Shown: piece after piece, positions 8,307-21,149 of the stretch
Layout: every line of letters starts with the position of its first letter
How positions within the stretch are numbered: position 1 is the stretch's first letter
Source of the DNA: a bacterium
GTDB taxonomy: Bacteria; Patescibacteriota; Minisyncoccia; Phycocordibacterales; JAKAEA01
NCBI GenBank assembly: GCA_021785065.1
Contig: JAJYGQ010000007.1
Coordinates: forward strand, 1-41,365
Direction: 5' to 3'
Length of the DNA stretch: 41,365 nucleotides
Position numbers and translations under genes: made by a program
Notes under the pieces: model-generated
The model's input: the letters and a program-made list of their open reading frames with translations, nothing else
Databases searched by the model: none
What the model was told of the DNA's origin: nothing

Positions 8307-9523
8307 AATTAAAAGATTTATTTAACGAAACAACCGCCGCCTTGCTCGGCAACAAAGTGCGTTCCGGCTTAACCGTACTTGGTATTGTGATTGGTATTGC
8401 ATCGGTTATTGCTATGATTTCTATTGGTAATGGCGCGTCGAGTTCTATTCAGGCCAATATTCAATCACTCGGTTCAAATTTACTCATCGTGACGCCAGCA
8501 GCAGCGCGAGTTATTGGCTCCGGGCCATCGGCTGGCCGCGGCAGTGCTCAAAGTTTAACGGTTGCTGATGCTACAGCAATTGCCTCGCAAGTTGCTAATG
8601 TAGTTGGCGTTGCTTCAGAAGTTTCTACGCGCGAGCAAGTGGTCGCCGGCGCTAATAATACTAATACCACCATAGATGGTACTGATCCGAGCTATACCAG
8701 TGTTCGCAATCTCACCATTGCTAATGGCAGTTTCTTTACCGACGCCGAAGCCAGTAGCTTAGCCCAAGTGGCCGTGCTTGGACCAACGACCGCGAGCGAC
8801 TTGTTTGGTACCGCTGATCCGGTCGGACAGACGATTACTATCCAAGGCGTTGCATTTACTGTTATCGGCGTCGCGGCCGCAAAAGGTGGTACGGGTTTTA
8901 ACAACGTCGACGATCGCATTTATATTCCGCTGCGTGATGCCCAAGTGTTTATGACGGGCAATCAATATGTCAATGATATTAATATTGAAGCTGCTTCAGC
9001 GGGTGCTATGCAACAGGTTCAAAATGACGCTACGGCACTTTTACTACAGCGTCATAATATTTCTAATCCTGCTAATGCCGATTTTAGTATTATCAATCAA
9101 GCCGACATTCTTTCTACTGCTTCAAGTATTACCGGAACACTCACCATCTTACTTGCTTCAGTGGCCGGTATCTCACTACTCGTCGGAGGTATTGGTATTA
9201 TGAACATGATGCTTACCACCGTAACAGAACGCACTCGCGAAATCGGTTTACGCAAGGCGATTGGAGCTAAGAAAAAAGATATCCACATGCAGTTTTTAAT
9301 GGAATCAATACTTCTGACTTTTGTGGGGGGTGTTATTGGTATCGTTCTTGGCTGCGCCATAGCTCTTATCATTAGCGCTATTGGCGTTATGCATGCGGCT
9401 ATTTCGGTCTTTTCTATTGTGCTTGCTTTCGGCGTTTGCGCCCTTATTGGTATCATTTTTGGCTATTATCCGGCACGCCGAGCCGCTAATCTTAACCCCA
9501 TAGAAGCATTGCGCTACGAATAG
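8303..9523 (+). CDS. MacB/FtsX-type ABC transporter permease
   Basis: 406 residues. The first membrane helix (about 20-43, GLTVLGIVIGIASVIAMISIG) is followed by a large external MacB_PCD-type domain (about 45-270) and an FtsX core of three helices at the C-terminus with the conserved GIGIMNMMLTTVTERTREIG and LRKAIGAKKKDI stretches, ending NPIEALRYE. These are the hallmarks of type VII ABC transporters, which work by mechanotransmission on an adaptor. It overlaps the ATPase gene and would form a tripartite machine with the MacA-like adaptor two genes upstream. The substrate cannot be predicted. Confidence 0.92.
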   Translation: MKLKDLFNETTAALLGNKVRSGLTVLGIVIGIASVIAMISIGNGASSSIQANIQSLGSNLLIVTPAAARVIGSGPSAGRGSAQSLTVADATAIASQVANVVGVASEVSTREQVVAGANNTNTTIDGTDPSYTSVRNLTIANGSFFTDAEASSLAQVAVLGPTTASDLFGTADPVGQTITIQGVAFTVIGVAAAKGGTGFNNVDDRIYIPLRDAQVFMTGNQYVNDINIEAASAGAMQQVQNDATALLLQRHNISNPANADFSIINQADILSTASSITGTLTILLASVAGISLLVGGIGIMNMMLTTVTERTREIGLRKAIGAKKKDIHMQFLMESILLTFVGGVIGIVLGCAIALIISAIGVMHAAISVFSIVLAFGVCALIGIIFGYYPARRAANLNPIEALRYE

Positions 9524-15757: not shown

Positions 15758-16009
15758 ATGAAGAAACAGAGAATCGCTCCCGACATGAAGGAGCAGATCA
15801 TTAACCGTATCAAGAACGATGGTATTTCCGTCGTGCAAGCCGCCAAAGATCACGGTATTGCCGAAAACACCATCTACGGCTGGATCGCCAAGAAGGTTGA
15901 CGGTGTCAGCCAATCAGACATCATCAAGCTGAAGAGAGAGAATGATCAACTCAAGATGCTGCTGGGTGAAATCACCCTCAAACTCTCCGAAACCCAAAAA
16001 AAGAAGTGA
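15758..16009 (+). CDS. IS3-family OrfA (transposase DNA-binding subunit)
   Basis: 83 residues. A helix-turn-helix (IINRIKNDGISVVQAAKDHG, then IAENTIYGWIAKK) is followed by a leucine-zipper-like helix (IIKLKRENDQLKMLLGEITL). This is the complete OrfA of IS3-type elements, which binds the inverted repeats. A TATAAT box at 15729-15734 is suitable as its promoter. The end reads through the A7G slippery run; the normal stop is TGA at 16007. Confidence 0.9.
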   Translation: MKKQRIAPDMKEQIINRIKNDGISVVQAAKDHGIAENTIYGWIAKKVDGVSQSDIIKLKRENDQLKMLLGEITLKLSETQKKK

Positions 16010-16482
16010 GAGATACTGACGTTGGCACCAAAGCTCTTCGGGCCAGAGAGCTTGGTGTATCGTTGCGCAGCTTGTACTACAAACCAAAGAAGCCTGACAA
16101 AGATTGGGCGCTCAAGGTGAAGATTGAAGAAGTGCTTCGAGAGCACCCGTCATATGGGTCACGGCGTCTCGCTCTCCACCTCCACATGAACCGGAAGAAG
16201 GTGAAACGAGTAATGAATATCTTCGGCATTATGATCTCACGGTCAGCTCCCGGCTGTCCCTGGGAGAACGGCTACCAAGAGTCCTTTTACGACAAGTTCG
16301 AGGTGGATTTTGGCGACCCGAGTCGCTTCAAAACGCTTGGTGAACTGGTGTTGGCTATTTACCAGCAGATCTGGCAGTACAACAACACGAGGATACACTC
16401 AGTATTGAAAATGGCGCCGGTGCAGTTTGCCCTTCAGGCGGCAGCGACGTACAATGCAGGAAACAAGGACGCCATGCAATGA
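16006..16482 (+). pseudogene. IS3-family OrfB with the catalytic core deleted
   Basis: 158 codons remain open. The N-terminal HTH_21 part is present (HPSYGSRRLALHLHMNRKKV, about residues 48-67), then RVMNIFGIM runs directly into the far C-terminal part (ISRSAPGCPWENGYQESFYDKF...). In intact relatives roughly 120-150 residues lie between these and carry the two aspartates of the DDE triad; only the final glutamate (QESFY) remains. The join kept the frame, so it is a clean in-frame deletion. The protein cannot be an active transposase; the element could move only with help in trans. Confidence 0.85.
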
Positions 16483-17481: not shown

Positions 17482-17510
17482 TTGATGCGCGGGAGTGTGC
17501 ACGCTATACT
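17482..17510 (+). promoter_or_regulatory. Promoter of tRNA-Val and tgt
   Basis: TTGATG (17482-17487), 17-base spacer, TATACT (17505-17510). The start near 17517 lies just before the tRNA, and no other promoter is seen before tgt. Confidence 0.7.
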
Positions 17511-17524
17511 GCATCGTATTCGTC

Positions 17525-17598
17525 GGGCGGTTAGCTCAGTTGGTTAGAGCGCTCCCTTCACACGGGAGAGGTCAGGAGTTCGAATCTTCTACCGCCCA
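17525..17598 (+). tRNA. tRNA-Val (anticodon CAC)
   Basis: Acceptor GGGCGGT/ACCGCCC, D-stem GCTC/GAGC, anticodon stem CTCCC/GGGAG with loop TTCACAC (anticodon CAC), T-stem AGGAG/CTTCT. The discriminator is A at 17598 and CCA is not encoded. The tgt start codon begins two bases after the tRNA end. Confidence 0.95.
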
Positions 17599-17599
17599 C

Positions 17600-18817
17600 A
17601 TGGCTTTTTCATTCACTATCGAGAAAAAAATGCGTGGCTTGGGGCGCGCGGGAGTGGTGCACACGCCACACGGCGACATTTTGACACCGGCCTTTGTGCC
17701 GGTGGCAACCAAAGCAACCGTTAAAGCCCTCACGCCAGAGCAGGTGCGTGAACTTGGCGCGCAGGTGGTGCTTGCTAATACGTATCATTTATATCTGCAG
17801 CCCGGCGATGCGTTAGTTGCACGAGCGGGAGGCTTTGGAAAATTTATGGGTTGGAGCGGGCCTACTATTACTGATTCCGGCGGCTTCCAAGCATTTTCGC
17901 TTGGCGCGGCGTTTGGTACGGGAATTAGTAAATTGCTCAAAAAAAGTGACGAACTTATTTTACCAGAAGCGCAGGCTGATATTGAAGAGCGCGAAAATGA
18001 AGCAGAGAAAAAAGCGGCGCGCTTGGCAAAAATTGATCGTGACGGCGTGATGTTTCGCTCGCATATCGATGGCTCGGCTCATTATTTTACGCCAGAAAAA
18101 TCTATCGACATTCAACATAATCTCGGTGCCGATATTATTTTTGCTTTTGATGAATGCACGTCGCCGACTGAGCCTATTCACTATCAGCGCGAGGCACTTG
18201 ATCGCACCCACGCTTGGGCGCGGCGGAGTTTAACACGACACCAGGAACGAAAGAGTGAGCAGGCACTTTTTGGCATTGTGCAGGGCGGCCGGCACGAAGA
18301 ATTGCGAAAAATAAGCGCCGCGGCGATTGGTGAGATGGATTTTGCTGGTTTTGGTATTGGCGGATCATTTGCTAAAGAAGATATGTCGCAAGCGGTGCGG
18401 TGGGTGAATGAAATCTTGCCACCGGAGCGGCCACGCCATCTTCTCGGCATCGGCGAGCCAGCTGATATTTTTGGTGCTGTAGAAAATGGCTGTGATCTTT
18501 TTGATTGCGTCGCGCCCACGCGCAATGCTCGCACTGGCACACTCTACACCAGCACGGGCAAATTAAATATTTTAAATAGTCAGTTTATGCAAGATTTTTC
18601 GCCAGTTGATGCGCAGTGTGATTGCTTTACCTGCCGCACTTATACCCGTGCTTACCTTGCTCATCTTTTCCGCGCTAAAGAAATGCTTGCCGCCACCCTT
18701 GCCTCAATTCACAATCTTCGTTTTATTATTAAGTTGACCGAAGATATTCGGTCGAGTATTTTACACGACACTTTTGAGAGATACAAAGAATCATTTTTCA
18801 AGGTTTATATACATTGA
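17600..18817 (+). CDS. tgt: tRNA-guanine transglycosylase
   Basis: 405 residues. Tgt exchanges G34 for a queuine precursor in GUN-anticodon tRNAs. Seen: TDSGGFQ with the general base D92, FDCVAPTRNARTG with the nucleophile D302, and the zinc set C340, C342, C345 and H371 at family spacing. Between SGGFQAFSLG and GVMFRSHIDGS there are about 37 extra residues forming a charged helix (about 118-145). The ATG at 17600 is two bases beyond tRNA-Val; longer in-frame starts would read through the tRNA. No SD is possible, so translation probably starts from an RNA end made by tRNA 3' processing. No other queuosine genes are in the window. Confidence 0.93.
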   Translation: MAFSFTIEKKMRGLGRAGVVHTPHGDILTPAFVPVATKATVKALTPEQVRELGAQVVLANTYHLYLQPGDALVARAGGFGKFMGWSGPTITDSGGFQAFSLGAAFGTGISKLLKKSDELILPEAQADIEERENEAEKKAARLAKIDRDGVMFRSHIDGSAHYFTPEKSIDIQHNLGADIIFAFDECTSPTEPIHYQREALDRTHAWARRSLTRHQERKSEQALFGIVQGGRHEELRKISAAAIGEMDFAGFGIGGSFAKEDMSQAVRWVNEILPPERPRHLLGIGEPADIFGAVENGCDLFDCVAPTRNARTGTLYTSTGKLNILNSQFMQDFSPVDAQCDCFTCRTYTRAYLAHLFRAKEMLAATLASIHNLRFIIKLTEDIRSSILHDTFERYKESFFKVYIH

Positions 18818-18844
18818 CATCTTTTTATCATCATACTACTCTTG

Positions 18845-19005
18845 AATTAGGTGGACGTCTTTTTAAAAAACATCCACGACAATTTGTACGGTAGTAGTTG
18901 GGATGTTTGCGCGCATTTTAAACGTACCCAGGGCAATTTGCGTGGTAGTAGCTCTGGAAAATATTCAGAAACACGTCACACGTCATGTCGCGAGTCCCGG
19001 TAGTT
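18845..19005 (+). ncRNA. Candidate structured RNA with two tandem hairpin modules
   Basis: The 250-base gap between tgt and uvrB has no coding frame of note but contains a 24-base segment repeated 54 bases apart (18874-18897 and 18928-18951), sharing CAATTTG and GGTAGTAG. Each copy sits inside its own outer stem (AACATCC with GGATGTT; CCAG with CTGG). Inside, a small hairpin changes from ACA-AUU-UGU to GCA-AUU-UGC, a compensatory A-U to G-C change. A strong terminator follows. TTGACA at 18814-18819 is a possible -35, with a poor -10. I do not recognise the family. Boundaries are approximate. Confidence 0.45.
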
Positions 19006-19049
19006 ACCACCCAACTTCCTGAGGGGAAGTTGGGTGGTTTTCCTTTTTG
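19006..19049 (+). terminator. Strong Rho-independent terminator
   Basis: A perfect 13-bp stem (19007-19019 with 19025-19037), 5-base loop and T-rich tail on the plus strand only. It ends the tgt or ncRNA transcript before uvrB. Confidence 0.92.
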
Positions 19050-19064
19050 TAAATTTTTGTAACG

Positions 19065-19073
19065 TGATATATA
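19065..19073 (+). promoter_or_regulatory. Extended -10 of uvrB
   Basis: TGA-TATATA, placed after the terminator. The start near 19080 gives a leader of about 12 bases to the ATG at 19092, which argues against the GTG at 19074. Confidence 0.45.
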
Positions 19074-19091
19074 GTGGAAGCCTTTATCGCT

Positions 19092-21149
19092 ATGTCTAAA
19101 AACCCCTTTCAACTTGCAACGAAGTTCGCGCCAGCGGGAGATCAGCCGAAGGCTATTGCCGCATTGGTAGATGGTTTTAAAAAAGATATGCAGCATCAAA
19201 CGCTGCTCGGCGTGACGGGAAGCGGCAAGACGTTTACTGCCGCAAATGTTATTGCTGCTCTTGGCAAGCCGACGCTCGTGATTGCCCACAACAAAACGTT
19301 GGCCGCGCAGCTGGCACAAGAGTATCGGGAATTTTTTCCCGACAACGCCGTACACTATTTTGTTTCGTACTACGATTTTTATCAGCCGGAAGCATATATG
19401 CCGGTGACTGATACGTATATTGAGAAAGAAGCGCAAATTAACGAAGAAATTGATCGCTTGCGACACGCTGCCACCCAAGCGCTTTTGACGCGGCGTGACG
19501 TGATTGTCGTCGCTACCGTTTCCTGTATTTACGGTTTGGGATCGCCGGTTGAATATGAAAAAGTGAATATGCGATTGGAACGGGGCGCAAAGTGGGACGA
19601 GGGACGTGCTGGCCTTATTCGTCGCTTGATTGAAATTCATTATGAGCGTGTTGCCGGCGACTTAACCCCGGGCACCTTTCGCGCGCTAGGAAACACGGTA
19701 GAAATTATGCCGGTAAGTGACAAAACTATTTACCGACTTGATTTTGATGGTTTGAAAATTGCTACGATTACCCAGTTAGATGCGGTGAGTAGAAAAATTT
19801 TAAGCGACGTTAAGGTATTTTTTCTTTTTCCAGCGAAACACTTTATTACTGACACAGAGCAAATCGCGCACGCCACCAAAACGATTCGCGCTGAATTAGA
19901 TGCGCGACTTAATGAACTCAATGCTGCTGGCAAGCTACTTGAGGTTGAGCGGTTGAAACGCCGCACCACCTACGATCTTGCAATGATTAAAGAGATCGGC
20001 TACTGTAACGGTATTGAGAATTATTCTCGGCACTTTTCTGGCAAGGCGCCCGGCGAGCCACCGGATACACTGCTTTCATATTTTCCGCACACGGCTGACG
20101 GTGCGGCTGATTTTCTGACGGTCATCGACGAGTCACACGTCACTGTGCCGCAGCTTGCTGGTATGTTTGCCGGCGATCGATCGCGCAAAGACACGCTGGT
20201 GGAGCACGGCTTTCGTTTGCCGAGCGCCCGCGACAATCGGCCATTGCGTTTTGAAGAATTTAAAACGCGTGTTGGGCAAACACTTTACACATCAGCGACG
20301 CCCGGAACGTATGAGCGAGAACACAGTGTGCCGCCCACCGGGCAAACCGTTGAGCAAGTTATTCGTCCCACTGGTCTTATTGATCCCGAGCTTGACGTGC
20401 GACCAGTGATAGAAAAGAAACCCGCGTATAAAGGTCAGGTTTTTGATTTTATCGATGAAGCGGAGAAGGTGATTGCCCGTGGTGGCCGAGTTATCGCGAC
20501 GACACTCACTAAAAAAATGGCCGAGGACTTAAGTGAATTTTTAAAAGAGCGCCACCTCAAAGCGGAATATCTCCACAGTGGCATTAAAACCATTGAACGC
20601 ATCGAGATTTTGACAAATTTTCGCAAAGGGATTTTTGATGTGCTCGTTGGTGTTAATCTTTTACGTGAAGGTCTCGACTTGCCGGAGGTTCAGCTCATTG
20701 GCATTCTTGATGCCGACAAAGAAGGATTCTTACGCTCGGAAACGTCGCTTATTCAAACCATCGGCCGCGCAGCGCGCAATGTGCTGGGTCGCGTTATCTT
20801 GTATGCCGACACTATGACTGGTTCGATGGATCGCGCCATCACCGAAACTAACCGCCGTCGAGCGCTGCAAATTGCTTATAACAAAAAGCACAACATCACT
20901 CCCAAAACTATTGAGAAGAAAATTCACGACATTACTGATCAGTTGGCGACAGAGCATAGTAAAGCAATTAAGGAATTGGTAACTATCGACGCCGAAGAGT
21001 TTAAGAAAAATCCTAAAGCGCTCATTATCCAAAAAGAGCAGCAAATGGCTGACGCGGTTAAGATTTTAGATTTTGAAACAGCGGCCTTGTTGCGCGATGA
21101 AATTCAGATGTTAAAGAGCACAAAAATTAAACCACGAAAAACAAAATAG
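19092..21149 (+). CDS. uvrB: Excinuclease ABC subunit UvrB
   Basis: 685 residues. UvrB is the helicase-like damage-verification subunit of nucleotide excision repair. Motifs in order: NPFQLATKFAPAGDQPKAI, Walker A GVTGSGKTFTAANVI, the beta-hairpin region YYDFYQPEAYMP, DESH Walker B, the ATTLTKKMAEDLSEFL and HSGIKTIERIEIL helicase motifs, the motif VI region IQTIGRAARN and a C-terminal UVR domain (QQMADAVKILDFETAALLRDE) that contacts UvrC. The length matches the family. Followed by csrA and uvrA. Confidence 0.97.
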   Translation: MSKNPFQLATKFAPAGDQPKAIAALVDGFKKDMQHQTLLGVTGSGKTFTAANVIAALGKPTLVIAHNKTLAAQLAQEYREFFPDNAVHYFVSYYDFYQPEAYMPVTDTYIEKEAQINEEIDRLRHAATQALLTRRDVIVVATVSCIYGLGSPVEYEKVNMRLERGAKWDEGRAGLIRRLIEIHYERVAGDLTPGTFRALGNTVEIMPVSDKTIYRLDFDGLKIATITQLDAVSRKILSDVKVFFLFPAKHFITDTEQIAHATKTIRAELDARLNELNAAGKLLEVERLKRRTTYDLAMIKEIGYCNGIENYSRHFSGKAPGEPPDTLLSYFPHTADGAADFLTVIDESHVTVPQLAGMFAGDRSRKDTLVEHGFRLPSARDNRPLRFEEFKTRVGQTLYTSATPGTYEREHSVPPTGQTVEQVIRPTGLIDPELDVRPVIEKKPAYKGQVFDFIDEAEKVIARGGRVIATTLTKKMAEDLSEFLKERHLKAEYLHSGIKTIERIEILTNFRKGIFDVLVGVNLLREGLDLPEVQLIGILDADKEGFLRSETSLIQTIGRAARNVLGRVILYADTMTGSMDRAITETNRRRALQIAYNKKHNITPKTIEKKIHDITDQLATEHSKAIKELVTIDAEEFKKNPKALIIQKEQQMADAVKILDFETAALLRDEIQMLKSTKIKPRKTK

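Follow-up and report, generated by a model that had tools for sequence, protein, structure and literature searches.

The gap between tgt and uvrB in this genome holds two hairpins that present the same 16-nt loop on two stems of unlike sequence, enclosed together between the tgt stop codon and a strong intrinsic terminator that is followed by the uvrB promoter (Table 1). We tentatively read the pair, at a little below even confidence, as a lineage-specific structured noncoding RNA element that would have arisen when a stem-loop of ∼36 nt was duplicated locally, and regard an RNA element and a neutral hairpin duplication as about equally likely. The window analysed, 41,365 nt in length, is one complete contig of the assembly. 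A tRNA gene lies inside the tgt ORF as called, so the true tgt start is probably near 17630; the stretch 17630–18814 is 70% identical to tgt of a same-family relative. Seven neighbouring ORFs carried TGT, UvrB, UvrA, YkuD, FKBP or integrase-core domains, or none, and the integrase-core fragment (rve_3, IS3-like), at 16006–16482, lies upstream of tgt and of the YkuD gene.

Table 1. Features in and around the tgt–uvrB gap (positions of the window).
Feature	Position	Strand	Remarks
tgt ORF (Pfam TGT)	17495–18817	+	stop at 18817
tRNA gene	17525–17598		inside tgt ORF as called
Possible promoter	18814–18842	+	TTGACA-17-TACTCT; overlaps tgt stop
Possible closing stem	18851–18864 with 18967–18981	+	predicted; would join hairpins in one multibranch fold
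Direct repeat, 36 nt	18862–18897 and 18916–18951	+	two copies, 72% identical
Hairpin 1	18868–18908	+	12-bp stem, one bulged A (A18876), 16-nt loop AAUUUGUACGGUAGUA
Hairpin 2	18928–18957	+	7-bp stem, sequence unlike hairpin 1, 16-nt loop AAUUUGCGUGGUAGUA
Intrinsic terminator	19006–19038	+	14 perfect bp, then T-rich tail TTTCCTTTTT
uvrB promoter	19047–19075	+	TTGTAA-17-TATAGT; beyond terminator
uvrB	19092–21149	+	ATG at 19092; same frame also open from GTG at 19074

The motif CAATTTG-NNN-GGTAGTAG occurs exactly at 18880–18897 and 18934–18951, 54 nt from start to start, as the initial annotation had noticed; the 566-kb genome, of a size that suggests a member of the ultrasmall Patescibacteria, contains no further exact copy and two looser matches (2 mismatches), both single. 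Given that the similarity of the twin modules extends 5' of the motif as one 36-nt repeat at 72% identity, a local duplication is the probable origin of the pair. Each module does lie in its own stem of different sequence, as had also been proposed: hairpin 1 pairs AAACAUCC-(A)-CGAC with GUUG-GGAUGUUU, and hairpin 2 pairs CCAGGGC with GCUCUGG. The shared loop reads AAUUUG(UAC/CGU)GGUAGUA and is closed by the same C-G pair in both. Loop and closing pair are identical at 15 of 18 positions and the stem arms at 7 of 17 (Fisher p = 0.015), and both copies pair exactly up to the loop despite this divergence. Two of the inner four pairs are changed on both sides between the copies (A-U to G-C and C-G to G-C). 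An inner mini-hairpin changing from ACA/UGU to GCA/UGC had been cited as further support; its pairing is indeed kept, but it has only 3 bp, one of which varies, and is missing from the predicted folds, and because its single compensatory change also keeps the outer stem, it adds nothing. The pattern of kept loop and changing stem comes from two copies at one locus and, as the repeat suggests, from one local duplication. The predicted closing stem has modest support from folding (18849–18985, z = −2.3), while a further outer stem, giving a larger closed structure, was dropped (z = −1.2).

Random flanks yield stems this good at frequencies of 3.3e-4 for copy 1 (0.03%) and 4.1e-3 for copy 2 (∼0.4%), or ∼1e-6 jointly. 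Hairpin pairs with a loop of at least 15/18 and stems of at least 7 numbered 0 in 60 Markov genomes (510 kb, one strand each), and looser pairs (loop 14/18, stems of 6) numbered 7 in 60 such genomes. In the real genome, every other such pair was, on a reading of the list, a low-complexity tract or a tandem repeat. The alternative that survives best is a neutral local duplication of a functionless intergenic hairpin, at most a passive stabiliser of the tgt mRNA 3' end, which we consider a substantial possibility although appreciably short of an even one. The loops would then seem kept by chance or owing to a recent duplication, and the continuation of the similarity beyond the loop fits such an origin. 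Stems that are so far diverged and yet pair exactly are hard to reconcile with it, at the frequencies just given for random flanks. Fold energy favours neutrality: that of 18868–18958 is ordinary (z = −1.5; 23% of 260 intergenic 91-nt windows were as low or lower), and the z of −4.0 for the whole tgt–uvrB gap is due to the terminator hairpin, so that fold energy is no evidence for the element. The earlier argument that kept loops on changing stems mark a functional RNA is supported as to structure but not as to function.

The absence of homologues from relatives likewise agrees with neutrality. Neither covariance models nor exact patterns nor BLAST turned up a homologue of the modules in ∼1,000 related genomes, and the outcome was the same for 84,980 species genomes, for IMG/VR, and for phages and plasmids. 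A pattern search with 1 mismatch in 98 relatives gave a lone, single-copy match (in G035); BLASTN of the gap against 31 genomes stayed at noise level, and against plasmids and phages it returned no homologue. The single-module model (R1) had no convincing match in samples of the order, class and phylum, the matches listed being single copies and mostly within coding frames; with laxer filters in 39 relatives it gave two matches in the same-genus genome G001, apparently inside coding sequence. The twin model (R2), run on sets of 41 and 397 genomes, matched other hairpins. The exact tandem pattern met only unrelated tandem repeats in the 84,980 genomes and IMG/VR, the single pattern met 61 stretches in IMG/VR, none with a stem of at least 4 further pairs, and of at least 120 pairs of GGTAGTAG in IMG/VR, the 80 examined included no convincing R1 match. 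By eye, the modules were absent from the 3' flanks of tgt in ∼28 relatives and from the upstream flanks of uvrB in 27. Homologues with covarying stems, the mark of a structured RNA, were thus not found in the genomes searched, and with no homologue in any collection there is no independent covariation. The initial annotation had proposed a covariance-model search in related genomes and had counted a lack of homologous modules against its reading; that lack is what we found wherever we searched, by a test that is weak at close range. In an order relative, a near-perfect nested palindrome, TGGTTAAAAACACGAAACATCCACGAAATTTTC-AGTA-GAAAATTTCGTGGATGTTTCTAACCA (L212, G348:C8:2367-2425), was also encountered; as AAACATCCACGA...TCGTGGATGTTT it has 12 nt (AAACATCCACGA) in common with the 5' arm of hairpin 1, and as a homologue it was rejected, the match being within noise for 397 genomes.

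The close-range test is weak because the only same-genus genome examined, G001 (99% complete), lacks tgt and a full-length uvrB, and because the gaps of same-family genomes hold other genes. The twin modules were absent from G001 and from three same-family genomes. Given that same-family genomes have both tgt and uvrB, the two genes have apparently both been lost within the genus. They are adjacent in several genomes of the order and nearly abut in some. The three same-family genomes have 0.9–1.5 kb between tgt and uvrB, with small protein-coding ORFs that differ between genomes, and the gap therefore looks like a spot of quick turnover for small genes, which again suits a neutral duplication. 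Similar ORFs of ∼195 aa do lie between tgt and uvrB in two same-family genomes, G002 and G004 (L133 181-777; L135 951-1535, minus strand), and each has WW within its Pro-rich tail.

If the element is an RNA, it would be transcribed either as the tgt 3' UTR or as its own RNA of ∼190 nt, and a tgt 3'-UTR element, raised in the initial annotation, and a separate sRNA are both possible. The second version would use the promoter overlapping the tgt stop, with TTGACA at 18814, and would end at the terminator. Its −10 box, TACTCT, is a poor one, and the genome has 37 occurrences of TTGACA-N16..18-TANNNT; a transcript from it would start at ∼18848–18851, where the predicted closing stem begins. The terminator has the G+C-rich stem and following T run of an intrinsic terminator, and is as had been described except in length, which had been put at 13 bp. 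The separate uvrB promoter beyond it, also described before, stands, and two same-family relatives have a TATAGT box in a comparable position ahead of uvrB. With two unlike stems each presenting AAUUUG-N3-GGUAGUA, the likeliest action, if any, would be that of a bivalent binding platform on which the loop is read by a protein (a dimer) or by a partner RNA. For the tandem aptamer or sponge suggested previously, no positive evidence emerged. Loop complements as antisense seeds were rejected, since they were not enriched at gene starts: the 19 sites of CTACTACC include none within −80 to +40 of a gene start.

Several known RNA systems resemble the pair in part. In protein-sequestering RNAs of the CsrB/RsmY type, the same loop sequence occurs several times on different stems, and here too one loop sequence is offered repeatedly on unlike stems; in contrast to them, there are two loops only, with GGU in place of GGA, and no Rfam match. 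Guanidine-II (mini-ykkC) RNAs have short ACGR loops, and the likeness lies in two close stem-loops with free stems and similar loops, in which the loops do the work. In one account, the Guanidine-II loops are described as making kissing loop-loop contact (PMC9300104). Here, however, the loops are 16 nt long and neither AAUUUGUACGGUAGUA nor AAUUUGCGUGGUAGUA is an ACGR tetraloop, the predicted loop-loop pairing between the hairpins is weak (−3.4 kcal/mol), the element follows tgt and precedes a terminator, and the Guanidine-II covariance model of Rfam had no match at E up to 10 in 18818–19073. TIGR arrays of Tas systems, found in phages and parasitic bacteria, are tandem stem-loops with variable palindromic stems (PMC12045711). 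They share with our pair the varying stems of tandem stem-loops, but their loops contain variable spacers beside a Nop-domain gene, whereas here the loop is constant (15/18) in only two units, and a scan of the seven neighbouring ORFs showed no Nop-domain Tas gene. Like 3'-UTR-derived or intergenic sRNAs, the element runs from a stop codon to an intrinsic terminator and has a possible internal promoter; unlike them, it showed no relative and no targets in our searches. No Rfam family reached the gathering threshold in the gap. In the rest of the genome that was scanned (the assembly is 92% complete, its 55.8-kb contig C17 reads N, and a few short stretches lay outside the scan), no RNase P RNA, SRP RNA or 6S RNA was found at threshold. 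The 23S rRNA gene of this genome is ∼4.7 kb long (L199 5988-10673) and contains a group I intron (8802-9072); the 5S gene comes after it and the 16S gene further downstream.

In our view it is improbable that the pair is the first known member of a new class of two-loop RNAs in ultrasmall bacteria. The partner bound by the paired 16-nt loops of such a small RNA would then be a ligand, another RNA or a protein dimer, and relatives with a two-loop RNA would be not yet sequenced or outside the collections searched.

Three further readings fare worse. The first, an improbable one, is a decayed Fic-family fragment (mobile mystery protein B, TIGR02613) in frame 18851–18940 (+), perhaps continued past a frameshift, which would make the twin hairpins incidental. 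Residues 2–30 matched model positions 51–79 of TIGR02613 in NCBIfam (E = 0.12), a join through the frameshift brought E to 0.026 to 0.077, and a mob_myst_B profile of ten proteins, annotated family members from a plasmid search with a self-made consensus probe, scored 11.7 bits, whereas none of 1000 shuffles exceeded 7.8. However, the TIGR02613 match is marginal, or not significant after library correction, and the join was hand-chosen; the score of 12.2 to 14.4 bits compares with a family cut-off of 124.4, which a short fragment could not reach anyway, and another frame gave an equally weak match to an unrelated family. The invariant W-x-W-A-G reads W-D-V-C-A in the candidate, the Fic motif HPFxxGNGR is absent from the sequence examined of this genome, and the neighbours are tgt and uvrB rather than mobile mystery protein A. 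The candidate also matched nothing in Pfam or PDB and nothing convincingly in phages or plasmids, its codon usage is not gene-like, and it leaves two like loops on two paired stems unexplained.

It is very unlikely that the pair is a riboswitch-like attenuator, in which opening of hairpin 1 would let transcription continue into uvrB, because uvrB has its own promoter beyond the terminator, with a −10 box kept in relatives. The 3' arm of hairpin 1, AGUUGGG (18896–18902), can pair with the 5' arm of the terminator, CCCAACU (19010–19016), a perfect 7-bp complementarity inside a predicted duplex of −14.2 kcal/mol, and shows 13 nt of similarity to the terminator 3' arm; the terminator hairpin is nevertheless far more stable, and no Rfam aptamer was found. 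Least probable of all is a small protein gene of 50 codons with a GTG start (18851–19003), whose repeats would read DNLYGSSW and GNLRGSSS: its frame stays open until just before the terminator, would be leaderless with a transcript start near 18848–18851, and lies in the gap that holds small genes in relatives, but it has no ATG, no clear ribosome-binding site, no significant homologue and a codon score as low as that of the bottom 3% of real genes, the codon usage of the frame through the repeats being closer to off-frame stretches than to genes.

We return to the noncoding RNA element as our tentative reading of the duplicated stem-loop. Very little on regulatory RNA in ultrasmall, reduced bacteria was found in our literature search. 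One loop on different stems, when seen in one genome, is a lead but not proof; if the element is transcribed and kept in sister species, it would be a cheap, testable RNA candidate in these organisms.
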